This document shows positions 7,849 through 41,283 of a DNA stretch of 46,994 bases, piece by piece (within the stretch, counting starts at the first letter, position 1; every line of letters begins with the position of its first letter). Location: NCBI GenBank assembly GCA_024225395.1, contig JAAEMR010000253.1:1-46994 (forward strand). The letters are read 5' to 3'. Source of the DNA: Gammaproteobacteria bacterium (lineage in GTDB: Bacteria > Pseudomonadota > Gammaproteobacteria > GCA-001735895). The translations under genes and the position numbers were made by a program. Below the pieces are notes generated by a model. The model was given only the letters and a program-made list of their open reading frames with translations. It did no database searches and was not told where the DNA came from.

Positions 7849-7862
7849 TTGATGTAAATCAA
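7849..7862 (-). promoter_or_regulatory. Consensus FNR/Anr box upstream of the cytochrome operon
   Basis: TTGATGTAAATCAA matches the FNR consensus TTGAT-N4-ATCAA at all ten defined bases. On the minus strand a TATGTT (7828-7823) lies 30 bases downstream centre to centre, which is the geometry of a class II FNR-activated promoter (site at about -41.5) and predicts a start near 7816. The cytochrome operon is therefore probably induced by oxygen limitation. Confidence 0.75.
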
Positions 7863-8089
7863 CTTTGCAAACAATCACCGGTGTTTCTCTACTCTGAGAA
7901 ATGCATGATAAAAGGTATGTAATACTATATTTTGAAAAAACAGGATGTCAGCCAACATAATAATCTCGACATTTATAAGTGCAAAAACAGACGGAAACAA
8001 TTATGTTTTATTCTGATAAATCGAGCACCGTAGCCAAGTTACTAAGTTGATTTCCTGCAAAATTTGATAAGCGTTTTCCAGCTTTAGGG

Positions 8090-17005: not shown

Positions 17006-17012
17006 AGTCACC

Positions 17013-17471: not shown

Positions 17472-17516
17472 AATAAAATTATACGAAAGTTAATTTCTGC
17501 TTTTGTCCAGGAAAAA

Positions 17517-23397: not shown

Positions 23398-23422
23398 TTC
23401 ATTAACCTTCTTTAAACAGAGT

Positions 23423-24223
23423 TTAAACTGCCTCTTTCAATATTATGTTTTCGAGCACAACTTTATAGCTTTTCTGTCGATGGTCATATTTCAGAAAAAT
23501 TCTATAAACAAGATCTTCAAGAGTAATGTAAACTCTAAAATAACTTCCAATATCATCAGAGTATGCTAATCCACGAGTTTCCAAAGAATCAACTATGGAA
23601 TTTCTTAACTGCTCACGCTCAATTTCATCACTTGTTTCAAGCAGTTTACGAACACTGAATTGATCAACCCCTGGAAGCAGAACCAATACATTTTCAGGCG
23701 AATACGATGGATTCACCTCATCTTCATGAAAAATACTCACAATTTGAATTAATTTATCAAGAACCTCCTTATTTATAGCTTCAAACTGATGTAACTCATC
23801 AAAACTATTATAATTTAGCGTTTCATCTGATTTTACTACATCTAATATATTTTCAGTAGTTGATTGGTCAATATTAATCAAATTAAAAATATATTTTAGT
23901 GATTCATTTCTCAGTTTATAAAATGATATAAAACCTACTTCATTAAATATTTGAATACCTATATCCTGATTATTCAAATTTATAGTATATTTTTTATCTT
24001 TCCATTGGTTAGTAATAATTTTAAAAATTGCAAATTGAACCGCTGAATTTACCTGCATTCGATTTTTTAACTGAGCAGATACAGCAGAGTGATTAAGAGT
24101 AATCACACGATTTGAGGATGTCAACTGAAAAGCCAAAATTGAAATTACCACCAAAATCCATAATACGTAAATCAGTACAGCACCTAAGTATTTCTTTTTA
24201 ACCAGGGCATGCCTTTTTCTCAT
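23423..24223 (-). CDS. gspK: Minor pseudopilin GspK
   Basis: The 266-residue protein starts with a basic leader and GAVLIYVLWILVVISILAFQ, a prepilin-type helix without the Glu5 found in other pseudopilins, which is typical of GspK at the tip. A large globular domain follows (residues about 45-260), including SFYKLRNESLKYIFNLINI and PSYSPENVLVLLPGVDQFSV, which resemble the helix-hairpin-helix-like parts of GspK. It begins directly after the gspJ stop (TAA-ATG). It should complete the tip complex with GspI and GspJ. Confidence 0.85.
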   Translation of the reverse strand: MRKRHALVKKKYLGAVLIYVLWILVVISILAFQLTSSNRVITLNHSAVSAQLKNRMQVNSAVQFAIFKIITNQWKDKKYTINLNNQDIGIQIFNEVGFISFYKLRNESLKYIFNLINIDQSTTENILDVVKSDETLNYNSFDELHQFEAINKEVLDKLIQIVSIFHEDEVNPSYSPENVLVLLPGVDQFSVRKLLETSDEIEREQLRNSIVDSLETRGLAYSDDIGSYFRVYITLEDLVYRIFLKYDHRQKSYKVVLENIILKEAV

Positions 24224-24799
24224 TTATCTACGCCCCGTACTTCTTATCCACTCCATTATTTCAGTACCGGGCAACTCAATAATTATTTTAATAAATTCAG
24301 GAAATTGATTCTTTAATTGCCAGTTATCTACCCATCCTTCAGATGATAAATATTGAAAACTAATTTCATCCAATTTGATACCTGTTGATATTTGAAACTG
24401 CCTGTTAGATTTATATTCAGCATCAAACTTACGGTAAGAAACATAAAGTTCATCATCACTATGAAACAATCTAAAAACACGAAAACCTGGTACATCAAAA
24501 TTTTTACTGTATGCACGAGAAATTAACTGAAGAGAGTTTTCCTGCCCCTTAAAAAAATCATCTTTTTGAAATTGATAGACTAAATCTTTTTGATGTAAAC
24601 TTTTTTCAATAATTTGTGAAACCAGGTTGCTTAACAACAATTTATCAGCCCTAATTTCATGGTGAACTTTTGAACGTATCTGGTACTGAATTAAATTACT
24701 AATAACCTGATAGGAACTGATAAAAATTATACTACTCAACACAATTGAAACGAGCATTTCAACTAAAGTAAAACCCTGTCGGTAAAATGTAGAATTCAC
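24224..24799 (-). CDS. gspJ: Minor pseudopilin GspJ
   Basis: The 191-residue protein has a short leader and the prepilin site QG-FTLVEMLVSIVLSSIIF, with Gly at -1 and Glu at +5 of the mature form, followed by a globular domain of about 150 residues (ISRAYSKNFDVPGFRVFRLF, YVSYRKFDAEY, FPEFIKIIIEL). Length and order match GspJ. GTG start at 24799 with GGGA upstream. It belongs to the tip of the secretion pseudopilus, together with GspI and GspK. Confidence 0.85.
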   Translation of the reverse strand: MNSTFYRQGFTLVEMLVSIVLSSIIFISSYQVISNLIQYQIRSKVHHEIRADKLLLSNLVSQIIEKSLHQKDLVYQFQKDDFFKGQENSLQLISRAYSKNFDVPGFRVFRLFHSDDELYVSYRKFDAEYKSNRQFQISTGIKLDEISFQYLSSEGWVDNWQLKNQFPEFIKIIIELPGTEIMEWIRSTGRR

Positions 24800-24849
24800 T
24801 TAATCCCACCAACTCTACAAACAAAAAGATAAGCTAATAAAAACAAGAT

Positions 24850-25215
24850 TTAGTTTACCTCGCTAATATTCAATACATCCCATACAAAAGTGTTACTTTC
24901 ATTTGATACAGAATGAGTTGATTGCTGTAAAATTTTTTCCTTATCCTTTTGAGAGAACGAATCCATAATAAATGTTGAAACAGTCCAGTTATAATTATAA
25001 TAATGATCAGCTTGTATAAGTTGTTGTTCAATACCTATCTTTGAGACTTCTGTAAGATCATAAATCATCTGAACTTTTTGATAAGCATCGTAAGATAAGT
25101 GATAGTGATAAACCTGACCGGAAACATAATCCAGAACCGCTACCAATGAAGATGTAAAGATAACAAAACCTACCAGCACCTCTAATAAGGTAATTCCTTT
25201 CTGTCGAGAGTACAT
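24850..25215 (-). CDS. gspI: Minor pseudopilin GspI
   Basis: The ATG at 25215 is chosen because AAAGGT lies seven bases before it and gives a normal short leader, MYSRQKG-ITLLEVLVGFVI, with Gly at -1 and Glu at +5. The mature part of about 110 residues has a small globular domain (YHYHLSYDAYQKVQMIYDLT, YYNYNWTVSTFIM), which fits GspI. An ATG seven codons upstream would give a longer leader. The prepilin peptidase needed for processing is not in the window. Confidence 0.8.
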   Translation of the reverse strand: MYSRQKGITLLEVLVGFVIFTSSLVAVLDYVSGQVYHYHLSYDAYQKVQMIYDLTEVSKIGIEQQLIQADHYYNYNWTVSTFIMDSFSQKDKEKILQQSTHSVSNESNTFVWDVLNISEVN

Positions 25216-25274
25216 ATGATTACCTTTTAACAACATCGCTTATTTCTCTTATATTTAAATAAAATAAATAAAAA

Positions 25275-25751
25275 CTATACTGGCTTAACATGATGTTTGG
25301 TTGTGATTTTACCTGAAATCCAGGTTAAGATAATTTCGATTAGTTCGTTCTCTGATTCTAGTGCCACTACCCCTCCTGAAGAACTGGCATCAGCATAAAA
25401 TGTGATTGCTACCAGATCTTTTTCAATAAGTTGTCTCTCTGCAGTTTTAATCGTTATAGAAACATCTTCTGGTAAATTCACAGTTTCATCAATGAAATAA
25501 AAAGAGTTATTGGAAAAATCTACTTCAACCTGAAACTGTCTGTTTTCACGTATTGCACGTTGCTGAACCAACTTCATATTCTGAACAATTTTGGTTGTGT
25601 ATGTTTTTAAAGTATCCTTTTTATTAAACATCACAAAAGAGATTGACCCCACTATAATTGACATGATAGTCAAGACAACCAGTAGCTCTACCAGGCTAAA
25701 AGCCTTTTGGGAATGAACTTTAACCTCCCCAGTTAGTAATATCTTTATCAT
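25275..25751 (-). CDS. gspH: Minor pseudopilin GspH
   Basis: The 158-residue protein carries the prepilin helix FSLVELLVVLTIMSIIVGSI and a beta-rich C-terminal domain (QFQVEVDFSNNSFYFIDETV, LVAITFYADASSSGGVVALE), as in GspH. The residue before the predicted cleavage is Ala (QKA-FSLVE), not the usual Gly. The ATG at 25751 (or GTG at 25763) lies inside gspG, an overlap of about 30 bases. A strong GGGGAGG lies further in, at the end of gspG, without a standard start codon after it, so the exact start is uncertain. Confidence 0.75.
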   Translation of the reverse strand: MIKILLTGEVKVHSQKAFSLVELLVVLTIMSIIVGSISFVMFNKKDTLKTYTTKIVQNMKLVQQRAIRENRQFQVEVDFSNNSFYFIDETVNLPEDVSITIKTAERQLIEKDLVAITFYADASSSGGVVALESENELIEIILTWISGKITTKHHVKPV

Positions 25752-26139
25752 CACCTTCACCACCCGGTTGATTATCTGCTCCCAGGCTTATCAAATCAAA
25801 AGACCCATGTTCTCCTGGTTTTTGATATAAATATGAATTACCCCACGGGTCATTTGGAATTTGTGCATTCTTAAAATATGGACCATTCCATCCTACCATC
25901 GACCCATCATCTTTAACCAAAATGGTAATGCCCTTTTCTGTTGCTGGGTACTGCCCGGTATCAAGGAAAAATAATTCTAAAGCCGATTCAATTTCTTTTA
26001 TCTGCAATTTGGCTGTTTTCGCCTTTGAACTTCCCAAATACTTCATTACATTAGGTCCAGCTATACTCGCCACCAAACCCAAAATAATAAGGACAACCAA
26101 TAACTCGACCAATGTAAAACCTGATGTATTTTTTTTCAT
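25720..26139 (-). CDS. gspG: Major pseudopilin GspG
   Basis: The 139-residue protein has the leader MKKNTSG followed by FTLVELLVVLIILGLVASIA and the typical GspG body: KAKTAKLQIKEIESALELFF, DTGQYPATEKG, GPYFKNAQIPNDPWGNSYLY and the calcium-binding end FDLISLGADNQPGGEGDDKD. It forms the shaft of the secretion pseudopilus. Length and motifs are normal for the family, which makes this the surest member of the set. It follows gspF after about 60 bases. Confidence 0.95.
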   Translation of the reverse strand: MKKNTSGFTLVELLVVLIILGLVASIAGPNVMKYLGSSKAKTAKLQIKEIESALELFFLDTGQYPATEKGITILVKDDGSMVGWNGPYFKNAQIPNDPWGNSYLYQKPGEHGSFDLISLGADNQPGGEGDDKDITNWGG

Positions 26140-26197
26140 TTACAATACCAATTTAAAAACCAAAATTTCATATCATATCTTTATGATAAAACTAATT

Positions 26198-27391
26198 TCA
26201 AACAGCCAACTCATTAATACTTAAAATTGCCTGCAACATAGATACCACTATCAATCCAACAACCAAACCTAAAATCATAATTATGGCCGGCTCAGCATAG
26301 GTCATCATGGATTTAATTCGAACATCCAGCTGCTTATAGTAATACTTTGACAGTTTTGAAAAAGATTCTGAAAGGCGCCCTGTTTCTTCTCCAACAGCTA
26401 CAATATAAATAAAGTGTTGCGTGAAAAAATTTGTATTTAATACTTGCTGAATAGATTTACCTCGACTGATTTCTCGGGTCATGGATTCAATTTCATTTTT
26501 ATAAACTATATTCCCGACAGCATCTTTTACATGCTCCAACGCCTTTATAATAGTGATTCTTTTTTTCATTAAAATATGCAGAATCATAGAAATAATATAC
26601 AGATTATATTGCTGAATCATTACTCCGATGACAGGCAATTTGAGAAAATATTTTGCCCAACTTTGATCGGTTAAAGCACTGTTCATTAATTTCCGAAAAA
26701 TAATAATCGACAATATCAGTAACAGTGATATGAGCTGATAGTTTTCAGTTAACACATCAGAGATAGCAACAATCACTCCGGTTATGCCACTCATATCTAC
26801 ACCCATTCCAACAAACAGGGATTTAAATCGGGGAATCACAAGACCAAACAACACAAGAATAGAAATAAACATAACTCCGGAAAGAATCATTGGATAAATC
26901 AGTGCCGATTTTATTTTCTGTTTAAACTCCTGGAGGTCGTGAGTAAGCCGGGCGAGTAGACTAAAAGATTCAGAAAGAGAATCTGTTTCTTCTCCAACAT
27001 TTACCACACCAACATAAAGTGCACTAAAGTGTTCAGGAAATTTTTGCATCGCATCAGACAGTGCTCCCCCCTGTCTAACTAAATCGACAAGTTCAGCCAG
27101 AAAACTCATTGATGGGTTTTGGTTAAAACTTTTGGCTTCTAACTCTAGAGCCTTATCAATCGACAAACCTGAATCCAGATAATCATATATATTTTCAAAA
27201 AACTGCTGAGCTTCAAATTTTTGGCTCTTACTTAAAAATAGATTTATCTTTTTTTTATTTTGTACACTGGTAATTGTGATTGGTGTATATTTTAGTTTTA
27301 TCAGTTCAGCGACTACCGATTCTTCTGAAGAAAGGTTTAACTCTCCTTCAATAAACTCACCTTCTTCATTGAGTGCTTTGTACTTATACAC
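26198..27391 (-). CDS. gspF: T2SS inner-membrane platform protein GspF
   Basis: The 397-residue protein has the N-terminal YKYKALNEEGEFIEGELNLS segment and two copies of the T2SS-F domain with three transmembrane helices (near 165-190, 215-230 and 365-390). The conserved pieces are VGEETDSLSESFSLLA and VGEETGRLSESFSKLS. It anchors the GspE ATPase and pseudopilus assembly. GTG start at 27391, two bases after the gspE stop, with GGAG six bases before. Confidence 0.92.
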   Translation of the reverse strand: MYKYKALNEEGEFIEGELNLSSEESVVAELIKLKYTPITITSVQNKKKINLFLSKSQKFEAQQFFENIYDYLDSGLSIDKALELEAKSFNQNPSMSFLAELVDLVRQGGALSDAMQKFPEHFSALYVGVVNVGEETDSLSESFSLLARLTHDLQEFKQKIKSALIYPMILSGVMFISILVLFGLVIPRFKSLFVGMGVDMSGITGVIVAISDVLTENYQLISLLLILSIIIFRKLMNSALTDQSWAKYFLKLPVIGVMIQQYNLYIISMILHILMKKRITIIKALEHVKDAVGNIVYKNEIESMTREISRGKSIQQVLNTNFFTQHFIYIVAVGEETGRLSESFSKLSKYYYKQLDVRIKSMMTYAEPAIIMILGLVVGLIVVSMLQAILSINELAV

Positions 27392-27393
27392 GA

Positions 27394-29160
27394 CTACTCC
27401 AGTACTACACGGAATAATTCTTCAATAGACGTCTGTCCCATTTTAACTTTTTCAAAGCCATCAACCACCATTGAGGTCATGCCAAATTTAAGTGCTAGCT
27501 GGTGGATATTTGAATTACCAACCGTCACTTCTGTACGAAAATTTTCATTGACCAGCATCACTTCACAAATAGATAGACGACCTTTATAACCCGTATGATT
27601 ACACAAATCACAACCTACCGGTTCATGGCAGTTTATAACTGAATTTGACTCTAAATCCTCGTCAAAAGTATCAAGAATATATTGAGATGTTGAAACCGGT
27701 TTTTTGCAATGATCACAAAGTCTTCTTACTAAACGTTGTGCAACCACACCGATCAATGCCGAAAAAACAAATGATTTTTCAACGCCCAGATCGATAAGAC
27801 GTTCGATACTGGAAACGGCACTGTTCGTGTGCAATGTTGTTAAAATTAAATGCCCTGTCATAGAAGCTCTTACCGCGATTTCAGCTGTTTCGGAATCACG
27901 CATTTCACCCACCATTATTACCTCTGGGTCATGCCTGACAATAGCTCTTAGTGCATTGGAAAAACTAACTCCAACTTCAGGATGTACTTGTATCTGATTA
28001 ACACCATCAATTTTATATTCAACCGGATCCTCCACAGATACTATTTTTTTCTCAGCATTATTTATTTGCTGCAACATAGCGTAAAGTGTTGTTGACTTAC
28101 CGCTACCTGTTGGACCCGTTACTAAAATTAGCCCATGAGGTTTATTCAACATCTGTAAAATTCTTAGCTTGTTTTTTTCCGCATACCCGAGACTCTCAAA
28201 ATCAAAACTGATTGATTTTTTATATAAAAGTCTTAATACAATACTTTCACCATGTATGGTTGGAATGACCGATACCCGGACATCAATATCCTGACCGTCT
28301 ATGCTGATATCAAACCGTCCATCCTGAGGAACTCTGCGCTGTGCAATATCAAGAGAAGATAGAATTTTAATACGAGAAACAATGGCAGCAGATAAATTTA
28401 TCTGAATTTCCTGTACCGTAATTAATACTCCATCAATACGATTTCTTACTTTTAACTCATGACTATGTGGTTCAATATGAATATCTGAGGAATTTTGATG
28501 TATAGCTTCCTGAATAATGGAATTAACTATTTTAATTACAGGCGCTTCACTGGCCAGTTCCTTGAGTTGCTGAATATCTTTTTCCAGTAAAACTTCATCA
28601 ATAGCATCAAACTTATCAACAACAGTTTTATCTTTATCAACTGCTAACACCCGATCTAAAGCTTCCGAAATATCTTTTTTAAAACCTAGCCGGACTTTAA
28701 GATATTTACTACCTATAGCAAATGAAACTGCATTGTATAAACCCGGAGAAAATGGATCATTAATACATATTTCAATTAACTCATCGGTTTCAGATATTAC
28801 AATAACGTTTTGTTCTTTTAAAAAATTAGTATTGAAACTTTTCTCACCAAGCAGTTGAGTTGGATATAGATTTCTATCGAGAATTCGTAAACCATTGGCT
28901 TGCGAAATATAATTCAACATATCTACTTCAGAAGCCAGGCCAAGGTTTAATATTAACTGTATAACTGAAAGATCAGTTTGACCAGACTTCAATATGACAT
29001 TTAATTTCTGTATATCACTTGTTTTTAGTATGTCTTTATTACTTAGAGACTTAATAAAGTCTTCTTCTTTCTCAGAAAACAGATATTTATTTTCTAGATC
29101 AGCCATGCAAGAACCTATTTGATCTTGTTTTTTATAACTATATTTTATTGAATTTAACAT
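27394..29160 (-). CDS. gspE: T2SS assembly ATPase GspE
   Basis: The 588-residue protein has an N-terminal GspE domain, Walker A GPTGSGKST (residues 349-357), the Asp box, Walker B with VIMVGEMRDSETAEIA, a His box (TTLHTNSA) and a zinc-binding CxxC pair at Cys482/Cys485 with Cys517/Cys520. It powers pseudopilus extension. The ATG at 29160 is preferred over a TTG six codons upstream. It is the first gene of the secretion operon, so the promoter should lie in 29161-29231, where an inverted repeat is seen. Confidence 0.95.
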   Translation of the reverse strand: MLNSIKYSYKKQDQIGSCMADLENKYLFSEKEEDFIKSLSNKDILKTSDIQKLNVILKSGQTDLSVIQLILNLGLASEVDMLNYISQANGLRILDRNLYPTQLLGEKSFNTNFLKEQNVIVISETDELIEICINDPFSPGLYNAVSFAIGSKYLKVRLGFKKDISEALDRVLAVDKDKTVVDKFDAIDEVLLEKDIQQLKELASEAPVIKIVNSIIQEAIHQNSSDIHIEPHSHELKVRNRIDGVLITVQEIQINLSAAIVSRIKILSSLDIAQRRVPQDGRFDISIDGQDIDVRVSVIPTIHGESIVLRLLYKKSISFDFESLGYAEKNKLRILQMLNKPHGLILVTGPTGSGKSTTLYAMLQQINNAEKKIVSVEDPVEYKIDGVNQIQVHPEVGVSFSNALRAIVRHDPEVIMVGEMRDSETAEIAVRASMTGHLILTTLHTNSAVSSIERLIDLGVEKSFVFSALIGVVAQRLVRRLCDHCKKPVSTSQYILDTFDEDLESNSVINCHEPVGCDLCNHTGYKGRLSICEVMLVNENFRTEVTVGNSNIHQLALKFGMTSMVVDGFEKVKMGQTSIEELFRVVLE

Positions 29161-29196
29161 ATATTCACACTCTATCAAATAAAGTTATCTCTTTGA

Positions 29197-29315: not shown

Positions 29316-31676
29316 TTATTTAACTCTGACTTTCACTTTAGCAGCTCGTTGTGATAACTCACCAGTGATTGCATCAGCTAATCTATAGCGGAAAAAGTCT
29401 TTACCGGTGAATCCATCTTTAGGTGTATACATAACTTCGCCGGTTGAGCCAATTATTTCAACCATTCCGTTGACAGGTTGCTCAGTAATTTTGATACCAC
29501 CAGGATTTAAAGCACTATCCTTATCTTTATCGTTTCTCAACAGATCAATACGAACAGCAGTTCCAGATGATGTTCTCGCCCGGTCATTATTAACTCGAGG
29601 TGGATCCATCTTCGGAATGATATTAATCGTAGCTACTGCTGAAGAAGTTCCATAATCATTATAAATTTCAAATATAAATTGGTCGGCTTCTTCATCATCA
29701 CCAATATGAGTATAAACAAAAGTACCATCTTCATTCATGATAACTTCACCATGCTCAGGATACTCTAACAAGCCACTACTGACAGAGACACCCATCGCAC
29801 CACCGGAAACACCCAGCATCGCAACATCCACCGTAAGTGTAGAACCTTCCTCTACATTATAAGTTTTAGCTGCAGCTACCGGAGCAACCCCTGTTGGTGT
29901 GGCTGTTGAACCACCTGATGCGTCACCTGTAGTATAGGTACCCGATCCCGCAGCTGCTTCTGTTACCGTGATATTAAGTTCAGCTGAAGCTGTAGCACCC
30001 TCCGAATCTGATATAACATAACTGACAACCTCAGTTCCTGCTACCTGACCTACATCAAAAACAATAACCTGCCCCATTGCTTCTAAACTACCCAGGCTGG
30101 ACGAACCAACGCTTTGAATAGATAGAGAAGGTGAGTCGACATCTGTATCGTTATTCAAGGCGCGAATTTCAACATTTGATCCAGCCTTGACGCTAACAGT
30201 ATCATTATTAGCTACCGGGGCATCATTGACTGAAGATACATTAATCATAATACCAGCAATGGATTTCTCACCATCAGCATTGCTTAATTGATAAACAATG
30301 GAATCCTGAGAGTGTTCACTACCATCATTCTGATAACTAAAATCACCGTTACCCTCTTCAATTAAATCACCATGTTTTGGAAAAGTTAGAATGGTAACGG
30401 TAGCATTCTCAGCATTCACATCATTTGCCGTTGCTGAAGTCATAACACCGGTTAAAGAGCTACCTTCAAGGACAGCCATATTATCCCTGACTGCTCTCGG
30501 ATGAATAGCACTGGCAACTGGAGCCACATAACCCACAGGAGGTTGAAGCACAAAGTCGAGTACCATGCCGTTACCATCACCGTTGGAGATTTCATCACCA
30601 ACTGCTAGCGCAACAACTGGACCATTAGTAGCGGCTGGATTGCTAACAGCCATGGCACTGTCTGTTAACCTGAAAGAACCATCAACTGTAGGCTGCCCAT
30701 AAATGTCATTTATTCCTGAAACATTCAAAAATGCATCTTTGGATTTTAATGGAGGTAGTTCCACACTGTACTGTTTCAGCACATTGGGGTACAACTTGCC
30801 ATCTTCCGCGATAATGTCAAAGTCAGCTTCAAACACGGTTGGAATATGAATTCTCTGGCCTGCATTGTAAAAACGAACTAAAGGATTAACATTTGGTGTA
30901 ATTGCTATGGCCTGAAGGTCGTTAAAATCAGCAGTTCCATTTGCTCCACCAGGAAAACTGGTTGCTACATCGATAAAGAAGTGCTTGGGATGATAGTCAA
31001 CCGTACTCTGCATATCGACTGTATCGTAAGCCAAAGTCAAGGGATCGGTATCGGCAACACTGTTTCCAACGACATCATGAATTGCCCTGTCAATTTCATA
31101 ATAAAACAGGACAATTTCTTCAGAGTATGCCGTGCCCACATCATCATAAGCCTGGCCTGCCAAAAAATCGTCAGTTAGTGCACCATACAAACCCATTTGA
31201 ACCTGGAGCTGAGGATGAGTACCACTGTGATACATGTAACTACCCGGTTTCAGGTTATTCCAGCTGTATGTCAGGCTTGTGCCTGATGCTGTTTCCACAT
31301 CAAAAGAGTGGACACGTTGCAGACCTTGTGGCCCGGTAAAGAATTGTGGTTCCATTCTCTTGACGGTGCCCGGGATAACCAGCGAAGTAGCCCTGGATAA
31401 GGTATTGGTTAATACAACATCTACCCCATCATAAGCATCATCAATAGTAATCCGGGGACCAGGAGATGTTAAGTTTCCGTTGCATACGCCATTAGTTGCT
31501 CCTCCAAGCGCATATCCCCACATGGGTACGGTTGCAGCCGCGTTTGTTGCCGTAGGTAAAAGTTTATCAAACTGGCCGGCACACAGGGTAACCTGTTGAT
31601 TTGCCGCCAGGACTGTAAAAGTTGAGCTCAATCCAATAACACCCAGGATTGCAGCTGATAATATAGAACGTTTCAT
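29316..31676 (-). CDS. Ligand-poor cupredoxin protein with Ig-like tandem repeats
   Basis: The 786-residue protein starts at ATG 31676 (AGGAG seven bases before), giving the signal peptide MKRSILSAAILGVIGLSSTF. Residues about 25-370 form two multicopper-oxidase-type cupredoxin domains: SPGPRITIDDAYDGVDVVLT, GSYMYHSGTH-PQLQVQMGLYG and PLVRFYNAGQRIHI. The first has a histidine pair (YHSGTH) aligned to a trinuclear-cluster motif, but the HxHG motif is replaced by SLVIPG and there is no type 1 Cys. The C-terminal half has four Ig/cadherin-like repeats (APVANNDTVSVKAG, SFRYRLADAITG-type ends). It is probably a structural subunit of the oxidase encoded upstream in the same operon. It has no sorting tail. 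Confidence 0.75.
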   Translation of the reverse strand: MKRSILSAAILGVIGLSSTFTVLAANQQVTLCAGQFDKLLPTATNAAATVPMWGYALGGATNGVCNGNLTSPGPRITIDDAYDGVDVVLTNTLSRATSLVIPGTVKRMEPQFFTGPQGLQRVHSFDVETASGTSLTYSWNNLKPGSYMYHSGTHPQLQVQMGLYGALTDDFLAGQAYDDVGTAYSEEIVLFYYEIDRAIHDVVGNSVADTDPLTLAYDTVDMQSTVDYHPKHFFIDVATSFPGGANGTADFNDLQAIAITPNVNPLVRFYNAGQRIHIPTVFEADFDIIAEDGKLYPNVLKQYSVELPPLKSKDAFLNVSGINDIYGQPTVDGSFRLTDSAMAVSNPAATNGPVVALAVGDEISNGDGNGMVLDFVLQPPVGYVAPVASAIHPRAVRDNMAVLEGSSLTGVMTSATANDVNAENATVTILTFPKHGDLIEEGNGDFSYQNDGSEHSQDSIVYQLSNADGEKSIAGIMINVSSVNDAPVANNDTVSVKAGSNVEIRALNNDTDVDSPSLSIQSVGSSSLGSLEAMGQVIVFDVGQVAGTEVVSYVISDSEGATASAELNITVTEAAAGSGTYTTGDASGGSTATPTGVAPVAAAKTYNVEEGSTLTVDVAMLGVSGGAMGVSVSSGLLEYPEHGEVIMNEDGTFVYTHIGDDEEADQFIFEIYNDYGTSSAVATINIIPKMDPPRVNNDRARTSSGTAVRIDLLRNDKDKDSALNPGGIKITEQPVNGMVEIIGSTGEVMYTPKDGFTGKDFFRYRLADAITGELSQRAAKVKVRVK

Positions 31677-31695: not shown

Positions 31696-33144
31696 CTATC
31701 GTGGAACGACAATCATCATGGTTAACATGCCACCTGGAAAGATGTCATTATTGGTCAACGCCCTCTCTGAATGAGAGTGCCACATAAATACCATTCCACC
31801 CCAGGGGTTCAATCCGCCTTCACCAACCGGTAAGGAACCTACATCACCCAGATAAGGACTGCCTCCGTAAAATCCGCCGAAGCCAAGATCCTGGTTTTCT
31901 GGTAAAACAACGGGTAGTGGTTTGCCGTGATCTGCACAGTATTCCCAGGTAATATCATGGAAACCATCAGGAGTAGGCTGACCAGTTCGATTATTGACTG
32001 CGTCATCTCCACCCGCTCCTGAGATACAAGTACCATGCGGAGATTCAGAGTTATAGATATCCCAGCCCATGCCTTCACCGGTCCAGTTGAAAATCAGATC
32101 CTGGGTAGAACCCGGAACAGAATTCAGCGTGTAATCTGAGAATCCTGTATTACCTTCTCGGGTTGTGGTTGCCAGCAAATTACCATCTCGTGCAATCTGG
32201 TCATAGTGATTACCATGCAAGTGCAATGGATGCTGAGATCGACCCGGGTTTAACACACGTAATAAAATTCTTTGTCCCGGCTTCATAATCACCAGTGAAC
32301 CTAATGGCTGATGTTGTAAATAGGGGTAATTATCAGGTGCCAGTGTATCCGGGGCATTTCTACCATTTATGAAAAACAACACCGATCTATATTCCGAATT
32401 ATCCCATTGATCAATCCCGCCATGTTCTGCCAGGTAATGCAGCTTGGGATCCATTTCGCTGAGGAAAAACAGGTACTCCTGATCGTATGCAGTACTAGGG
32501 TCATTATAAGCCACACCACCCAACTGGTTGCCTTCATCATCAAGATTGGTGGGATCCATGTAGGCAGCCGCTGGAATTGGTCCGAATGGTCGTACGATAA
32601 ATGCTCCGACCAGGCCCATATCCGCCTGAATTTGCGGGCTAACACCACTCTGGTACAGATATGTACCCGGTTTCGCTGCGGTAAAGGTATAAGTGATAGA
32701 GTGTACGCCCGCATCATCTGCAGGTACAACATCAGTGCCACTAATGCTAGCGTTACCCCAACAACCATTTCTATTTGGGTATAAACCCGTTGGCTGAGGT
32801 GCTCCCGGTATATCACAAGTTTTGGATATCAAACCCTGTCCTGGAAAAACAAGAGAAACAGCTTGCGGTACATCCACATTATGAATGGTTACATTTACGA
32901 TATCACCTTCATCAACGATAATCGTTGGTGCAGGGTATTCAGCCTCACCTGCAGCACTTCTGGCAAACCCCCAGATTCTCAGGCTATCACCATCAGGCGT
33001 AGATATTTGTGCAGACTTGGCCCATAACTCGATCGAGTTACTTTCAATACCCGGTATCGCAGCATGGAGACCGAAGGACACAGCCATTAGTGACGCCATG
33101 GCCAGAACACGTCCCGTGTTTTTATATGATTTAAAAATTTTCAT
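31696..33144 (-). CDS. Multicopper-oxidase subunit carrying HLHG and HSH motifs
   Basis: The ATG at 33144 is used (GGAG six bases before; another ATG lies just upstream). The 482-residue protein has a signal peptide ending GLHA and two cupredoxin domains. The first (about 65-190) keeps the fold text (GTYLYQSGVSPQIQADMGLV) but has no copper ligands. The second has HPLHLHGNHYDQIA (His305, His308, His310) and, near the C-terminus, MWHSHSERALTNNDIFPGGM (His456, His458). These are the HxHG and HxH motifs of half a trinuclear copper cluster. The position usually held by the type 1 Cys (HCH) is Ser457, so it cannot be a complete oxidase by itself. It needs the neighbouring subunit. Confidence 0.85.
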   Translation of the reverse strand: MKIFKSYKNTGRVLAMASLMAVSFGLHAAIPGIESNSIELWAKSAQISTPDGDSLRIWGFARSAAGEAEYPAPTIIVDEGDIVNVTIHNVDVPQAVSLVFPGQGLISKTCDIPGAPQPTGLYPNRNGCWGNASISGTDVVPADDAGVHSITYTFTAAKPGTYLYQSGVSPQIQADMGLVGAFIVRPFGPIPAAAYMDPTNLDDEGNQLGGVAYNDPSTAYDQEYLFFLSEMDPKLHYLAEHGGIDQWDNSEYRSVLFFINGRNAPDTLAPDNYPYLQHQPLGSLVIMKPGQRILLRVLNPGRSQHPLHLHGNHYDQIARDGNLLATTTREGNTGFSDYTLNSVPGSTQDLIFNWTGEGMGWDIYNSESPHGTCISGAGGDDAVNNRTGQPTPDGFHDITWEYCADHGKPLPVVLPENQDLGFGGFYGGSPYLGDVGSLPVGEGGLNPWGGMVFMWHSHSERALTNNDIFPGGMLTMMIVVPR

Positions 33145-33158
33145 CATTTTCTCCAAAA

Positions 33159-34394
33159 TTAAATTGCAGGTGCGACGACAATTTCTGTCATCGGACCACC
33201 AAAACTTTGCTGATCATTACTCAGTTCATTTAGCTCAGTGATATACACGAAATAAGTTCCCGGCTCGACACCATCGGTATCTACCATGACATCATAGGCT
33301 TCACCACCACCCAGATTCACTGATGCGGTTTCATACTTATCAGTCAATTCTCGAGCACCTCGACCTATAACCTGCATAGGCAGTCCCAGTATTGCTACCG
33401 TATGGAACTTGGTGATACTCAAGTTGGTTATTCTGAGCAACAGTTTCTGGCCCGAGGTAACGGTCACTTTCGAAGTAAGCGGTTGACTGTTAACGCCTCC
33501 GTTTTCATCCTGGGCCTCACCAGGGTTAGTGACATAATAATTCTCATCTTCGACCGTGGTGGGATAACCACGACCATTGAACATATGATAGGTATCCACC
33601 ATATCCGCAAATGGTAAAGGCTGCGTATTTTTCGACGCATCATGGAATACCGGGTCAAAACCGGTCAACTGCAACGGCATTTCCACATCAAAACCGGTTG
33701 AACCCTGATTTTTAGCCAGCGAACCCGGAGCAGCATCATTGTAGGCAAATTTTGTGTAAAAACGACCACTACCGACTGGATATTCAATGGAAGTCCCATC
33801 CTGAGAAGGACGTACATACAGGTTACCCTGCATGCCCATCTGCATATGCTCTGCCGCCTCTACGTGACAGTGATACAGGTATGTTCCCGGCTCTTTAATA
33901 TTGTAAAAATAGGTAAGTGAACCACCCATATTAATGGAAATAGAAGCATCCGGTACACCGTCAAATACACTGGATGCATTTGGAAAACCATGAAAATGCA
34001 CTGTATGGGTATCAAACAGATCGGGACGGTTCATCATGCCGGTATTGGTGAGTGTCAGGTAAAATTCATCCCCCTCATCCAGAATAATTGTCGGTGCTGA
34101 AGTATTGGCATTATAAAGTCCTGTATCTATCGCATCCTCAGGCAGTGTTCCGGTTATATCACCATAACCAAAGACATACTGAAGATAACCATCTCCCATA
34201 TTGGCAAAACCATCACTACTGCTCAGATGAATACACTTGGTATCTGCAGGCTGAATTTCTCCGCCTGTCCACTGTGAATCACCATTATCATCCCCGGGAC
34301 ACTGTACTAATACGGCCGCCTGAGTCGATGTTACCGGTAGCATGAGCATCGCGAGTAACGATGCACAGCTGCCGTATTTTATTAACGTTTTCAT
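33159..34394 (-). CDS. Multicopper-oxidase subunit carrying the type 1 site
   Basis: The ATG at 34394 is chosen (GAGG nine bases before; signal peptide MKTLIKYGSCASLLAMLMLP ending TQAA). The 411-residue protein has two cupredoxin domains. The first contains HTVHFHG (His130, His133, His135) and YLYHCHVEAAEHMQMGM (His175, Cys176, His177, His183, Met188): a complete type 1 copper site plus four trinuclear-cluster histidines. The second domain (about 300-411) has no ligand set. Alone it lacks the other four cluster histidines, which are found in the next protein. The spacing HCHx5H is two residues longer than the usual HCHx3H. The product is probably exported and copper-loaded outside the cytoplasm. 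Confidence 0.85.
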   Translation of the reverse strand: MKTLIKYGSCASLLAMLMLPVTSTQAAVLVQCPGDDNGDSQWTGGEIQPADTKCIHLSSSDGFANMGDGYLQYVFGYGDITGTLPEDAIDTGLYNANTSAPTIILDEGDEFYLTLTNTGMMNRPDLFDTHTVHFHGFPNASSVFDGVPDASISINMGGSLTYFYNIKEPGTYLYHCHVEAAEHMQMGMQGNLYVRPSQDGTSIEYPVGSGRFYTKFAYNDAAPGSLAKNQGSTGFDVEMPLQLTGFDPVFHDASKNTQPLPFADMVDTYHMFNGRGYPTTVEDENYYVTNPGEAQDENGGVNSQPLTSKVTVTSGQKLLLRITNLSITKFHTVAILGLPMQVIGRGARELTDKYETASVNLGGGEAYDVMVDTDGVEPGTYFVYITELNELSNDQQSFGGPMTEIVVAPAI

Positions 34395-34461: not shown

Positions 34462-37400
34462 TTATTCCACCTCATCCGAACCTAAATCAGCTAATCCGAT
34501 TTTGGTTTCATTATCGATATCGGTATTGCCATTAGGACGATTACCCACACCTTTGTTAGCCGCAAATGAACCACCTTGTAAGTGATAATCGGAAGGTTGC
34601 TCTCCCATAAGAACAATAAGAGCCCCGGTAGAAGGATCCGCTGAATCAATATCGTTTATGGACAGTGGCGAATAACGTACATCCAGCCAGTTTCCACCTT
34701 CATCCAGTGCAGGAGAGACTTGAATAGTCTGGAATTCTGCGCCGGCAGCCGGGTTCAGACCAGGTGCACGATTGACATATTCCGCTTCAAATGATGGATC
34801 ACCGGAGATATTACTGGAATGATCACCCGTGACATTAGCAGTCAACAAGTTATTTCGGCTCAACCCTTTTTGGCCAGCAGTAGTCACAATAAGCCCTGCA
34901 CTAAAATCGTTATAGACAGGAGTCGTTGATCCCGGATCAACCAGAGAGTTGGTAGCCAGCTCGTAAATACGTGAGCGGTTCTGCCATATAATATTGTTTC
35001 TGAGGAGTGGTAATGAATACCCCTGATTATACCGCCACAGATTATCTTCGATCTGTACTAGCCCGGCCAAACCTTCATGTGGTCGAGACACAATACCAGC
35101 CACCTGTGGATCAGAAACGAGGTTACCATCAACAATCGTACCCAGGGCAAATGCAGCACCGGCTGTTGCGGTACTTTCATTATTGGACATGGTATTGTTG
35201 CGGATATTAACGCGAACCGCGTCTTTCAGTGACATGGCACCACCACCATATCCAGCCACATTATTAACTATCGTATTGTTATCAACATTAACCAGCCACC
35301 AGTCACCTACCTTGTCTGGCGTACCTTCAACATCAAGACCATTAACACGCCTTAGAGCAATACCTGCACCATCACCGGCACCGGCCTGGTTACCCTGAAT
35401 CAGATTCTTGTTAATTTGAACACGACCCGCACCAGCCGTCAGTGCTCCAAGATTAAAGCTGTCAGCGCCTGCTATCAGGATACCGCCACCATCTGTTTCC
35501 ATACCCGGAGTCTGACGGAACGACTGATTAAAAATAATCTGGTTACTGTTAATCTGTCCACCCGAGCTTAATCCCAGATGACCAATACCAGCACCATCTG
35601 TCATTGCGAAGTTACCGCAGATCAGGTTGTTTTCAACACGATAATTCAAAGACCCGGTATAGATGGCAATACCACCACCCGCGCCATTAAACACACCATT
35701 TCGGGTAATCATGTTATTGCGAATATGGATATTACGGTTCATTGCATCAGGATGACGGAAGGTACCGTCCAGATCGCCACCGACGACCTGCTCCTTGACT
35801 GTATTGTGACCCAGGCGAATTCCACCACCATAAGTACCCTGGTTACCGGCAATCAGGTTATTGGTAATACTGAAACCCTGGACGAAACCGTTGACAAAAA
35901 CACCACCACCGGTTGAAGCACCCGTAATGGAGAATCCATCAATACGTGCGGGCCTGCCGTTAACAAACTTGCGGTTGCCAAAAGACTTGCTGACCACCAT
36001 CAAACCGGGACCTTCTTCAGTAACAAACAGTTCAGCCCCTTCCTGTCCAGGAAGCAGAGTGAACCTTGGGTTATTAAAGTTAGGTCCATCAGGATCAAAA
36101 CCCAGCAGGTCATTTACCTTGGCACGCCAGTTAACTACTTTTTCAGCAGGTACACTACGCGCATTGATGAAAGTTGAATAGGCACCAGCACCTTGTAAGG
36201 CAACAGGCTGATACATTATTGGCAACTCGTCATAAGTACCCGGTGCCACCAGGATAATATCTCCCTGACCGGCAAATAACTGGGCTGAAGCATCCAGCGC
36301 ATCCTGAATTGGAGTTGCTCCGGCTGCAGTACTTGGATCAACCAATCTGACTTCACTATTGGCCCATCTTAAGGTACCGACGGTAACCGTTACTGCCATG
36401 GGTGATGATACGCCGTTAGCATTTTCAACAACCAGTTGGAAGTTCTTGATTGGATATTTACCAGGAGTAGTCTCGGGCACGAGCCCTTGTGGGAAATCAA
36501 CTGTAATGACATCGTTCGCCCAGGCTGAACTCGTAGCGGCTGTTGCATTGCCATCTTTGTCAATGAACCAGACCGTTCCCTCAGCAGTGCCAAAGCCATA
36601 ATCTCTCAACACATTTTTCTCGGTGGTTGAACTCAACTCAGTGGCAGAAGGATTCGGTACAGAACGCAGACCGACAGCATTAATGGTCAATGTAGCGGTC
36701 GCTGCAGTTGGATCAGAGATATAAGCACCGTGGTTTGGATATTCGCCACTGAATACCGAACTGATCATTGGAGTCGCATCTGCTGCATCACAGTCCAGCT
36801 GGTAACCAGATCCGGCAAATGCCGCTACAGATACAACCGGTGTATCCAGGTAAGTTGTTCCACCAGGCATGTACTGGAAGGTGTAACAAAACTGGCTGTA
36901 CTGAGGATTATGATTTGGATCGGTTACCAGACCTGTACCATTCGGATCATCGACCAGACCGGAATCATTCATACAGGCAGTCAGCATGTTAGGTGCCATA
37001 CCTGAAGGACTGCCGACATTAACCGTATTGGTAGAAGGCAACATTGCATTGTATTTACCATATTGATCGGTATATACACGTGTTACTTCATGACCATTGA
37101 AGTCATAAAAAGCAACCGGTACCCACGGTGGAGTGAATTTTTCACCGAAAGATGGTGCAAGAGGGTTAAACTCGTTAGCCACATCATTGATAACACCACC
37201 CACTACGTGAGCTGCTTTAGGTACTTCTGTGAAATAATGGAAGTCAGCCGCGGCATTTCTGCTATCGCCTACACGGACACGTTTTGTATCACATAGAGGG
37301 CGAGTATCACCGGCATAAGGTGCTGCATAGTCAGCAGGATCACCTGTAACCACCTGTACTGCACCATCCACTACATGACTTAACAGTGGCGGAACCAAAT

Positions 37401-40056
37401 GATCAGCACCAATACAAGTTGGTGGCAATAACAGAGGAACACCGTATTCATCACCAAAATCTACATTTTTATCTTCTTCCTTCAGCAGGGTATAACCTGG
37501 AGGCGTGAAGGATTGAACAATGTAGTAAGCGGAAGGCAGGTTCTCAGAGAACGCATAACCACCGTCAAATACGCCAGGGCGAACCTGGTTCCAGTTACGT
37601 AAACCGTCAAAACATTTCGTATCGATAGCTTCAAAACCAGGGCCGTTCGAACCACCACAATTGGTTGGAACATTGTCATCCCAGCTGTCTGTCCAGGTAA
37701 CTTCCCATGCATCGCCTTTATCAAATGCACCATTACTGTTACGGTCGATATCTTCCGGACCTTTTGCAGCAGTACCTTCACCCCAACCTAAGGGATGGTT
37801 ATCCACGTCAGGAAGCTGAATACCTGGAACACCATTAATATCATCAATAACTTCATCACCGGCAGCTGCAAATGCTCCATTGGTATCCAGAGAATCCTTA
37901 TACAGTGCAATCTGAACGCGAGGTATACCCGGTTCCCATTCTTCTGCAGCAGCATAACGAGGATCATGCTCGGCACGCGTAATCGCGTAAATCGCCATGC
38001 CTGAGATACCACCATTTTCACCTGGCTCATAATTAGCTTTACCAAATTCAATGGTATTTTTCTGTCCCAGGAATCCCTGGAATGCCTGAGTTAACACGGC
38101 ACCCGTTTCAGTACGGGTTAAACCGCCATCATGTGTACAACCGTTACCGAGGTCAGCTGTATCGTTACCATCCGCATTTAGAACGCCATTACATGCTGGC
38201 ACTAACAGAGGATCCTGGGGTTGTGCCACATAACCATCATCCTGAAGAGTAGCACTATCACCACCTGCATCAGCAGTCATGGTTGCACCTGTTGCTTTAA
38301 AAGCAGCGAAATCAACCTCTGCTACTAACCAGTGAAAAAATGGAAAGATTTCTTCGTGAGGTGCTTCACCGAAAACATCAATCGGTACACTCTTGTACAT
38401 ACGTCCATCTCTCCAGCGTATGTTAGTTGCCGAAGCATCTGCAAACATGGTGACATCATCCTCACCAACTATATTACAATCAGGATTTAAGCAATCACGA
38501 AAACCATTTTGATTTTGATCATAGAAAACAACAGTATCCATCTTGTTAAACCAGTTAAAGACCGGAATCTGACCGAAATCACACATTGCATTTCCTGCTC
38601 CACCACAATTAAGGGTTTGACCGGCAGCATTAAGCTGTGCAGGATTTAACAGAGAAGAAATGGTGTATCCATCAGTCTCATTTCCAGCAACATTAAAAGG
38701 ATGGTTTGCTATAACTGCATCCAGACCATCATCCCAGATCGACAGACTGTAAGAACCGGGAGCCAGGTTATCAACAGTAAATGAAGCAGGAACCGTATCT
38801 GGATCAGGATCATCAAAATCACATTTTTGAGAATAAATGGTTCGGCCTTGAATACCTTCATTGATGGCTACTCGACAACCTTCAAAAGGTTTGCCATTAG
38901 AAAATATAAAACTTCCTCCAGTGCCATCAGGGTTCTGTAAAGGACCAGGACGAGACATATGGTTATCAACAATTTGCCCTGTGATGGTCGCTCCTCCAGT
39001 CACTGGATCGCTTGTGATAACTTCCTTATCACCATCTGCATTAATAATTTCATCCTGACAGGCATTCAGTCCACCCTGGACATAACCTGTATCGCCACTC
39101 ATACAATCATAGTTGCGCACAAAACCGACAAACACGTGAGGACCGGGAGGACCAAACTCTACAAACACCTCTGGCTCATTAGCCTTAACCCAGGCATCAA
39201 TCGTTCTGGTACCTTCAATAGTAGAGGTCTGAACCCAAATCGACTCACCATTAGCACTTTCTCGAGCCGGAGGGGTTATTTCCACACCATACTTAGCTGG
39301 AGGTAAGTGTTTAATGACCAGATAGCCATTCGCATCTGGCCTTAAATTAAAACCATTTGGCGGTGTGAATGTGACATTACCATTCTCATCATAATCTGTG
39401 CCCAATGGATTGCCGTAGGCATCCGCGATTACACGACCACCAGCCATACCGTATTGACCGGCCGCATCAAACAGCTTGACATCAAAATAATGTTTCTGAC
39501 CATCAATAATGGAAAACTGCAAACCATGTTCATCCAGATCAATAGCACCATTTACAGGACTGTTGTCTTCAAACACGCGGACACTGATTTGTGTAGTAGG
39601 AATGGGAAAACTGTTTACAACAACCGTCTTATCAATAGTACCAGTAGCATTTTCAACAGCTACTCCGCTAAGCGCATGCCCGTTATATGGCACTACAGAA
39701 ACAAAGTAGCTCTTATCGTCTGGCACGGTAATTGAAGCAGTATTATCTGCAGGGGTTAATGAAGAACCTGATATACCGTTTCCATCTGCATCAGTTGCTA
39801 CCGGGTTATGACTCTTGTGAAACTCGAAAGAAAGACTGTCAAACCCAGCTGCAGGTTCGTTCAGGATAGGTTTATAGGTAGTATCCTCTTCAACCAGATA
39901 ACGAAATCCGGGAACAGCAGCTCCATTTTGATCTAACACAGTAATATTAATCTGTGCTGCAGAAGCTAACTGCGTTACCGACATTCCTATCGCTAAAGCA
40001 GTAAGTGCAAAGGGTCGGATCAACCCTTCCGGTGTAAATGATTTTTTTATCATCAT
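34462..40056 (-). CDS. Giant exported protein with carboxypeptidase-like and beta-helix domains
   Basis: The ATG at 40056 follows GAGG and gives a signal peptide ending TQLASAAQ; an ATG one codon later is equally good. The 1864-residue protein begins with several Ig-like prealbumin/SdrD-type domains (QINITVLDQNGAAVPGFRYL, TQISVRVFEDNSPVNGAIDL, GFVRNYDCMSG). A long middle region follows with acidic EF-hand-like pieces (DIDRNSNGAFDKGDAWEV). Residues about 1400-1800 form a right-handed parallel beta-helix (GFSITNNLIAGNQGTYGGGI, NIHIRNNMITRNG, VNVDNNTIVNNVAGYGG). It ends DYHLQGGSFAANKGVG and DLGSDE, as in choice-of-anchor Q proteins. It heads the cupredoxin operon and may be a scaffold or adhesin for the oxidase at the cell surface. 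Confidence 0.75.
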   Translation of the reverse strand: MMIKKSFTPEGLIRPFALTALAIGMSVTQLASAAQINITVLDQNGAAVPGFRYLVEEDTTYKPILNEPAAGFDSLSFEFHKSHNPVATDADGNGISGSSLTPADNTASITVPDDKSYFVSVVPYNGHALSGVAVENATGTIDKTVVVNSFPIPTTQISVRVFEDNSPVNGAIDLDEHGLQFSIIDGQKHYFDVKLFDAAGQYGMAGGRVIADAYGNPLGTDYDENGNVTFTPPNGFNLRPDANGYLVIKHLPPAKYGVEITPPARESANGESIWVQTSTIEGTRTIDAWVKANEPEVFVEFGPPGPHVFVGFVRNYDCMSGDTGYVQGGLNACQDEIINADGDKEVITSDPVTGGATITGQIVDNHMSRPGPLQNPDGTGGSFIFSNGKPFEGCRVAINEGIQGRTIYSQKCDFDDPDPDTVPASFTVDNLAPGSYSLSIWDDGLDAVIANHPFNVAGNETDGYTISSLLNPAQLNAAGQTLNCGGAGNAMCDFGQIPVFNWFNKMDTVVFYDQNQNGFRDCLNPDCNIVGEDDVTMFADASATNIRWRDGRMYKSVPIDVFGEAPHEEIFPFFHWLVAEVDFAAFKATGATMTADAGGDSATLQDDGYVAQPQDPLLVPACNGVLNADGNDTADLGNGCTHDGGLTRTETGAVLTQAFQGFLGQKNTIEFGKANYEPGENGGISGMAIYAITRAEHDPRYAAAEEWEPGIPRVQIALYKDSLDTNGAFAAAGDEVIDDINGVPGIQLPDVDNHPLGWGEGTAAKGPEDIDRNSNGAFDKGDAWEVTWTDSWDDNVPTNCGGSNGPGFEAIDTKCFDGLRNWNQVRPGVFDGGYAFSENLPSAYYIVQSFTPPGYTLLKEEDKNVDFGDEYGVPLLLPPTCIGADHLVPPLLSHVVDGAVQVVTGDPADYAAPYAGDTRPLCDTKRVRVGDSRNAAADFHYFTEVPKAAHVVGGVINDVANEFNPLAPSFGEKFTPPWVPVAFYDFNGHEVTRVYTDQYGKYNAMLPSTNTVNVGSPSGMAPNMLTACMNDSGLVDDPNGTGLVTDPNHNPQYSQFCYTFQYMPGGTTYLDTPVVSVAAFAGSGYQLDCDAADATPMISSVFSGEYPNHGAYISDPTAATATLTINAVGLRSVPNPSATELSSTTEKNVLRDYGFGTAEGTVWFIDKDGNATAATSSAWANDVITVDFPQGLVPETTPGKYPIKNFQLVVENANGVSSPMAVTVTVGTLRWANSEVRLVDPSTAAGATPIQDALDASAQLFAGQGDIILVAPGTYDELPIMYQPVALQGAGAYSTFINARSVPAEKVVNWRAKVNDLLGFDPDGPNFNNPRFTLLPGQEGAELFVTEEGPGLMVVSKSFGNRKFVNGRPARIDGFSITGASTGGGVFVNGFVQGFSITNNLIAGNQGTYGGGIRLGHNTVKEQVVGGDLDGTFRHPDAMNRNIHIRNNMITRNGVFNGAGGGIAIYTGSLNYRVENNLICGNFAMTDGAGIGHLGLSSGGQINSNQIIFNQSFRQTPGMETDGGGILIAGADSFNLGALTAGAGRVQINKNLIQGNQAGAGDGAGIALRRVNGLDVEGTPDKVGDWWLVNVDNNTIVNNVAGYGGGAMSLKDAVRVNIRNNTMSNNESTATAGAAFALGTIVDGNLVSDPQVAGIVSRPHEGLAGLVQIEDNLWRYNQGYSLPLLRNNIIWQNRSRIYELATNSLVDPGSTTPVYNDFSAGLIVTTAGQKGLSRNNLLTANVTGDHSSNISGDPSFEAEYVNRAPGLNPAAGAEFQTIQVSPALDEGGNWLDVRYSPLSINDIDSADPSTGALIVLMGEQPSDYHLQGGSFAANKGVGNRPNGNTDIDNETKIGLADLGSDEVE

Positions 40057-40701
40057 ATTTTCCTCTTTACATTTGGTGTAGTGCAATGCAGATAAAACAG
40101 GTAAACCTGCGTAAATCAGCCATCTTTTGTTGATATCTATAATGCAGCTTGCCTTCAAGAGGAGATATACGGAGAACATATGAACTGATGCGACATTTTG
40201 CCGCACCTTGCCCACCCTTTAAGCGTATTCAGTGTTCTTTATTTATGTACTTTGAGGTAGATTTTTACGTAGCATCAATTTAAATCATTACTTTATGCTT
40301 ATATTTCAGATACTTAGATCATTTATTTACAATTAACTTCATACTTAGCTCTTTCTACCAGATTGACTAAAAAACTTAATTTTATGGCTAATAAATTTGT
40401 ATGAAAGCCATGCGTAGTTAACAAATACAAAAACAAACGTTATCTCAGTAGTATTTTGGTGGAATCAATGTCATGGGAAAGTAGCTTACTGAATCTTCAG
40501 AAAAGCTTGTCTAAATAACCTGCAAGAAAAGCAGAAAAGAGAATCAATGACAAAATTTGAACTGCGTCACAATTTTGAGTCAAGGTTAAATATTATTGTT
40601 TTTTTCACGTTTCGTTCACATTAATACTTATAAGATAATAATCAGAAATAACTTAAGTAAGCCAATCTTTTAAAAAGCTGTGAAAGGATGAGTGTGAAAG
40701 G
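40057..40701. other. Intergenic region between divergent operons
   Basis: The 645 bases separate the minus-strand cupredoxin operon from the plus-strand Sco gene. It must hold both promoters. A plausible plus-strand -10 (TATAAGATAAT) lies at 40629-40639. A 25-codon frame at 40547-40624 (MTKFELRHNFESRLNIIVFF) has only a weak ribosome site and is not called as a gene. No consensus FNR site was found. Confidence 0.5.
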
Positions 40702-40707
40702 ATGAGT
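40680..40707 (+). repeat. 14-bp tandem duplication covering the Sco gene start
   Basis: GTGAAAGGATGAGT occurs twice without a gap. The first copy contains an ATG (40688) that opens a five-codon frame (MSVKG) whose TGA at 40703-40705 overlaps the ATG of the Sco gene (40702), as in translational coupling. Confidence 0.85.
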
Positions 40708-41283
40708 AAGCATTTAATTTTTTTAGTTTTATTAACCTACAGCTTAAATCTATCTGCATTCGAAAATGCAAAACAATTTAACTCCGTTGATCTTGACTAT
40801 GTTTTGTCAAATTCATCCAGGGCTAATACATTTTCTTTTTCATTTCCAGAGATGAATGTACTGGATCATCGCAACCAGTCGAAACAACTGAGTGAATTAT
40901 TTGATAAAGATAAAAACGTGGTATTTGCTTTCTTTTTCACTCACTGCGTAAGCATATGTACAACAGTCACCCTCAGTCTAAAAAGTATCCAGCATCGTTT
41001 ACCTGAAAATACGCAAATGGTTATGATCAGTATTGACCCGGAAACTGATACGCCGGACATATTAAGTAATTATGCAAAAACACACCGGATTGAAGACCCA
41101 AACTGGTTTTTACTGACGGGCAATAAAAAACAAATTATAGATTTACAGAAAAAATTTGAAGCTTACCGTGGTAACAAAATGAACCACAACACTTCTCTTT
41201 TCGTTAAAAAATCAAGTTCAGAAAAAATTATAGAAATAAAATCTGACTTTTCGCTTATCCCTCAAATATTTAATAAGAGTTGA
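40702..41283 (+). CDS. Sco1/SenC-type copper protein
   Basis: The 193-residue protein has a signal peptide (residues 1-19, ending LSA), a thioredoxin-like fold and the Sco copper site: Cys82 and Cys86 in FFFTHCVSICTTVT (CxxxC) and His162 in MNHNTSLFV. MISIDPETDTPDIL is the usual conserved stretch after it. Sco proteins deliver copper to copper enzymes or reduce their thiols. Its position opposite the cupredoxin operon makes the split oxidase a likely client. It is followed six bases later by the FHA gene. The start lies in a 14-base tandem duplication. Confidence 0.85.
   Translation: MSKHLIFLVLLTYSLNLSAFENAKQFNSVDLDYVLSNSSRANTFSFSFPEMNVLDHRNQSKQLSELFDKDKNVVFAFFFTHCVSICTTVTLSLKSIQHRLPENTQMVMISIDPETDTPDILSNYAKTHRIEDPNWFLLTGNKKQIIDLQKKFEAYRGNKMNHNTSLFVKKSSSEKIIEIKSDFSLIPQIFNKS

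Follow-up and report, generated by a model that had tools for sequence, protein, structure and literature searches.

A multicopper oxidase copper site apparently divided between two adjacent genes of a conserved three-cupredoxin cluster

Introduction

To our knowledge, multicopper oxidases (MCOs) are generally described with a copper site encoded by one gene; MnxG additionally has the accessory subunits MnxE/F. The known two-domain oxidases are homotrimers, and histidines from the first domain of one subunit and the second domain of the adjacent one make up their trinuclear centre (PMC13151041, PMC6650940). In ceruloplasmin, a six-domain relative, the second domain of each unit lies opposite the first domain of the unit that follows (D6-D1, PMC3600357). 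For the MofA/OmpB oxidases, the available excerpts of PMC5566968 name SCO and MofC as partners, and link OmpB to type II secretion (Mehta 2006, cited therein).

A three-cupredoxin cluster has already been published. In the excerpts available of PMC12016527 and PMC5566968, the Slit_1812-1818 cluster of Sideroxydans lithotrophicus ES-1 comprises two cupredoxin proteins with MCO motifs, a large third one without them, an SCO1/SenC protein and a cytochrome. According to the excerpts of PMC12016527, magnetite-grown cells show a higher abundance of this cluster than cells on Fe(II)-citrate, and similar three-cupredoxin clusters occur in Paraburkholderia. Here we describe a related arrangement in a 46,994-nucleotide stretch of gammaproteobacterial DNA (contig JAAEMR010000253.1, hereafter the window), for which a sequence-only reading had proposed that one MCO active site is divided between two consecutive genes.

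Results

The cluster lies on the minus strand of the window, in the 5'-to-3' order Big, A, B, C. Gene A (33159-34394) encodes a 411-aa protein, numbered from M1 at 34394, and gene B (31696-33147) a 483-aa protein, numbered from M1 at 33147; the span 31696-34394 originally assigned to the two genes is correct. Depending on the start codon chosen, 2 to 11 bases separate the two reading frames. Both products carry two cupredoxin domains, and Pfam multicopper oxidase domains were detected in each. Gene C (29316-31676) encodes two ligand-free cupredoxin-like domains followed by Ig/cadherin-like repeats; it gave weak matches to oxidase models, and its N-terminal part is related to B. A Sec-like signal is present in each of the three chains. 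Upstream of A, Big (34462-40215) encodes a 1917-aa secreted protein with a right-handed beta-helix region. The presence of C directly downstream and of the beta-helix protein directly upstream, and the conservation of the neighbourhood, were not noted in the sequence-only reading.

The copper ligands are confined to domain 1 of A and domain 2 of B. In A, the motif H130xxH133xH135 (33990-34007, minus strand), which ends as HxHG (HxxHxHG), accounts for a type 1 (T1) histidine and the first trinuclear pair, and was invariant in the 27 of 27 alignment rows that cover it. The motif H175-C176-H177...H183....M188 (33831-33872, minus strand) supplies the second trinuclear pair together with the T1 Cys, His and Met (28/28 rows). 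Both motifs together give A domain 1 its type 1 copper set and four of the trinuclear histidines. In B, the third pair belongs to H306xxH309xH311 (32215-32232, minus strand; H306-P-L-H309-L-H311-G) and the fourth to H457-S-H459 (31771-31779, minus strand; W-H457-S-H459), both invariant in 28 of 28 loci. The A residues listed by the sequence-only reading (His130, His133, His135-Gly, His175, Cys176, His177, His183 and Met188) are all present under those numbers. Its B residues are present as well, but were counted from the second Met, and its positions 308, 310, 456 and 458 are H309, H311, H457 and H459. Residue H306 of B, also invariant, had been overlooked.

The ligand pattern is gone from the equivalent columns of A domain 2 and B domain 1 in the alignment of the 28 loci, and C has lost the equivalents of all the ligand motifs. 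Counted together, the cupredoxin domains of A and B contain the four His-x-His pairs and the single type 1 set (Cys, His, His and Met) expected of a member of the multicopper oxidase superfamily. Since identity to the window proteins drops as low as 43% for A, 38% for B and 25% for C, the conservation of the ligands is informative. The pattern is far beyond chance, because the ligands are invariant in all B and in all covering A sequences while the equivalent columns have lost them. The earlier proposal that four trinuclear His pairs and one type 1 site are split over two polypeptides, neither of them complete, is thus borne out across 28 loci. AlphaFold models of A and of B, built from a shallow alignment of four sequences, had pLDDT values of 33-36.

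The same pattern could be read differently, with A as a blue (type 1) electron carrier and B as a copper-binding scaffold that share no centre and do not reduce O2. Neither A nor B alone is a complete oxidase, electron-carrier cupredoxins exist, and an extracellular cytochrome partner is encoded nearby. However, unused half-sites should decay, as they have in the second domain of A, the first domain of B and in C, whereas the eight trinuclear histidines are invariant in the 28 loci at identities down to about 38-43%. We therefore regard two functionally separate proteins as an unlikely explanation.

The closest solved structures for A and for the B profile are the type-C two-domain oxidases 3g5w and 2zwn. 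Domain 1 of A aligns ligand for ligand with domain 1 of 3g5w/2zwn, and domain 2 of B with their domain 2. The 3g5w motifs are HTIHWHG and YHCHVNVNEH in domain 1, and HAIHTHG and HDH in domain 2; B H306xxH309xH311 aligns with HAIHTHG, and B H457-S-H459 with HDH. When single-chain relatives encoded in other genomes (L009 and L083) were included in the alignment, the single chains carried motif blocks 1 to 4, A carried blocks 1 and 2, B blocks 3 and 4, and C none. Because single-chain type-C oxidases such as 3g5w hold all four motifs, A and B appear from the alignment to be complementary halves of one copper site, and the block pattern would be the expected outcome if a two-domain oxidase gene had been duplicated and its copies had then lost ligands in a complementary manner. 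Like the type-C enzymes, A is a two-domain subunit with its type 1 copper in domain 1, but neither A nor B carries all four His pairs on one polypeptide, as the homotrimeric enzymes do. By these alignments, A and B are kin to the type-C two-domain family without being plain members of it, since no single polypeptide holds all four pairs.

A second candidate explanation is that a six-domain manganese oxidase of the MnxG or MofA kind was cut into three genes, and the sequence-only reading had in fact pointed to MnxG for the order of the motifs. The resemblance is real, for the type 1 motif comes first here, in bacterial six-domain oxidases (PMC3600357) and in MofA-like chains; SCO and MofC-like partners are also held in common (PMC5566968, available excerpts). 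The kinship itself was not supported. Profiles of A, B and C gave no match, even at E 10, to three MofA-like chains, which were recognised as such from their motifs and from nearby MofC genes and not from their names. Among solved structures, the two-domain type-C enzymes are the nearest relatives. Furthermore, PMC3600357 reports the centre of bacterial six-domain enzymes between the second and third domains, and here the ligands lie in what would be, in gene order, the first and fourth domains. A, B and C occupy separate genes throughout the loci, unlike the single six-domain chain of MnxG, and their membership of the MnxG family is not supported. We consider a divided MnxG or MofA highly improbable, and rejected the identification of A-B-C as MofA, given that the MofA-like chains near MofC genes lack profile similarity to them. 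Because those chains match no A, B or C profile, the profile comparison assigns A-B-C to a different enzyme family in a MofA-type setting.

The 28 loci were drawn from the source genome, other genome contigs, a plasmid collection and further genomes. Their hosts are Pseudomonadota and one Acidobacteriota MAG, and include complete genomes and Cupriavidus metallidurans. A and B are separate adjoining genes in all 28, and C is next in line in every locus whose contig or stretch extends that far. A survey for the same gene pair and for fused versions had been suggested earlier: neither the genome surveys (about 1,300 genome draws) nor the 28 loci yielded a single-chain fusion of A with B or of B with C. 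One long frame of 1340 aa (in genome G655) was considered as a fusion and rejected, because the usual split is present there and the frame is merely lengthened by being read from stop to stop. Of the haloarchaeal plasmid matches, the one examined was a short lone MCO-like gene, and these were set aside. In the class survey, each A detected had B alongside. In the tree A, B and C form one group each, which indicates that the split predates the spread of the family. The divergence of the three proteins is correlated (r 0.86-0.92), which is expected for any co-inherited genes and is no proof of contact.

A frameshift or contig error breaking one ordinary oxidase gene, which the nearly contiguous frames might suggest, deserves practically no credence and was rejected, since both proteins come with a signal peptide of their own and a full pair of cupredoxin domains, and the identical split recurs in 28 loci, among them complete single-contig genomes (G246, G983 and G1199) and the finished megaplasmid of C. 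metallidurans CH34 (L045).

A second, distinct split pair, A'/B', was found as two adjacent genes of ~340 aa in four genomes (loci L102, L103, L104 and L105; genomes G1221, G1154, G1249 and G1142). The first domain of A' has HT(I/V)HHHG and YHCH...HAEMGM, and the second domain of B' has HAVHxHA (HAVHCHG in L082) and MHLH. The N-terminus of B' carries a twin-arginine signal (TIGR01409 above cut-off in L102), and no hydrophobic signal segment was found in A' in any of the four. Since A' lacks its own signal while B' has a Tat signal, the arrangement is best explained, on sequence grounds, if B' carries a bound A' along as its passenger during export, which would imply a complex. This pair supports the hetero-oligomer idea for A and B. 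It adjoins CusB/CusA-like copper efflux genes, assigned by reading the sequences and not by a model. AU tests on an independent origin of the A'/B' split relative to that of A/B gave p values of 0.32 and 0.31. There is no C gene within the stretch examined around the second pair, so C would be dispensable in principle.

The position of the beta-helix protein varies. It is free upstream of A in the window; in locus L006 the module is fused to the N-terminal side of A (1025-7870), and in L045 (9575-17560) and others to the C-terminal end of C. The same module thus changes its fusion partner between genomes. Because it is fused to A in one case and to C in others, Big is taken as part of the same system.

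The flanking genes were then compared. A SCO1/SenC-type copper chaperone (40702-41283, plus strand; PF02630, 3.7e-18) is the divergent neighbour of the cluster. On the minus strand, type II secretion genes span 14921-29178, with the GspD secretin (14921-17011), GspF (26198-27391), GspE (27394-29178) and pseudopilins. Interspersed among them are a MofC-like gene (19632-21182), with a cytochrome c domain (CVNCH) and a periplasmic-binding-like domain by weak Pfam matches, and a subtilase (S8) gene with a Calx-beta domain (21155-22960). Among the 11 clusters with long flanks, a MofC-like homologue was present in all 11 and the SCO chaperone in 9, and the subtilase and type II secretion genes recurred beside the cluster. 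Within the family of genome G246, MofC-like genes occur in 14 of the 301 genomes, including all six that have a full-length B. In 13 of 13 Burkholderiales-family loci (L153-L165) an SCO gene lies beside a MofC-like gene; the large partners differ there (MofA-like chains, other oxidases, unknowns), and the pair looks like a general accessory module.

Other genes of the window were also recorded. Besides two NHL beta-propeller proteins, the region 947-9196 (minus strand) encodes multiheme cytochromes c (doubled CXXCH). A 674-aa protein from the same region has no Pfam match and the look of an outer-membrane barrel; all these genes together possibly form a trans-outer-membrane electron conduit. 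The C-termini of the subtilase and of the protein encoded at 42422-46945 (minus strand) each combine a Gly-rich segment with a hydrophobic helix and basic residues, and resemble the GlyGly-CTERM sorting tails of type II secretion substrates, with weak model support. Outside the window, the source genome has a further oxidase-domain match in an 818-aa open frame (G000:C19:4893-5213, L166).

The conservation of the SCO1 chaperone, MofC-like cytochrome, subtilase and type II secretion genes suggests that the role of the cluster is metal oxidation outside the cell. With moderate confidence, the substrate would be extracellular Fe(II) (or Mn(II)), and the reaction may take place on the surface of a mineral. 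Iron is somewhat favoured by the published Sideroxydans expression data, as far as the excerpts go. The A/B/C family was located in Paraburkholderia (L046), and the family and Slit_1812-1818 are probably the same, a comparison made by gene make-up, not by sequence, and from excerpts of the published descriptions.

Discussion

We think it quite probable that A and B serve as the two catalytic chains of a single extracellular, metal-oxidising MCO, which arose from a homotrimeric type-C ancestor and in which C occupies the third seat. The subunit gene of the ancestor would have been duplicated and the copies would have lost ligands complementarily, reducing three potential centres to one. Domain 1 of A would contribute the type 1 copper and four trinuclear histidines, and domain 2 of B the other four. 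Since these are the sole ligand-bearing domains, the O2-reducing trinuclear centre would exist only at the A-B contact. Because the trinuclear centre of two-domain oxidases lies between subunits, a hetero-oligomer is the natural reading of the split site. The earlier claim of an obligate hetero-oligomer therefore retains its force from the universal split and the two-domain homology, but not from kinship with MnxG or MofA.

The domains of A, B and C add up to six, as in the known two-domain trimer, and the ligand-free paralogue C most likely takes the third seat in a six-domain ring. The geometry of ceruloplasmin would bring the first domain of A into contact with the second domain of B only in a ring ordered A, C, B; we infer this order, which differs from the gene order, as it can because the chains are separate. 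Attachment of the enzyme to a surface or mineral may be the task of C, through its repeats and together with the linked beta-helix protein. The complex would probably leave the cell through the neighbouring type II system, receive copper with the assistance of SCO and be coupled to the MofC-like cytochrome while it oxidises an extracellular metal (an Fe(II) mineral or Mn(II)). The most detailed form of this proposal, a heterotrimer from a symmetric three-site ring with one interface centre, C as a mineral or surface arm, and type II secretion of an oxidase for solid Fe(II)/Mn, is offered tentatively, with doubt slightly outweighing belief.

Text searches of open-licence papers returned no hetero-oligomeric multicopper oxidase, and earlier notice elsewhere is possible. 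A widespread site made of two gene products would explain why annotators record two MCOs, each holding half of one, and would alter the counting of metal-oxidation genes in genomes. The magnetite-linked Sideroxydans cupredoxin cluster, so far unexplained, becomes testable: neither gene should work alone.

The cluster has the same gene make-up as Slit_1812-1818, whose large motif-free member has adhesin/lyase-like parts. In the excerpts available of PMC12016527 and PMC5566968, two members are called canonical-MCO-motif proteins, and a half-site per protein is unmentioned. Like the extracellular MofA/OmpB systems, the cluster has an SCO chaperone and a MofC-like cytochrome as partners, but the MofA/OmpB oxidases are one long chain with all the His pairs, to which the A, B and C profiles show no similarity. 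With ceruloplasmin and MnxG it shares a total of six cupredoxin domains and would share a single trinuclear centre; in those enzymes, however, all is on one chain, with the centre reported at domains 1-6 or 2-3 (PMC3600357). The closest likeness is to the type-C two-domain MCOs (3g5w, and the 2zwn/4e9v two-domain laccase), whose subunits likewise consist of two cupredoxin domains, with the type 1 copper in the first and four His pairs at the same motif positions. In those enzymes one gene encodes all the ligands and the homotrimer has three centres, whereas here two genes encode half of the ligands each and a third gene encodes none.
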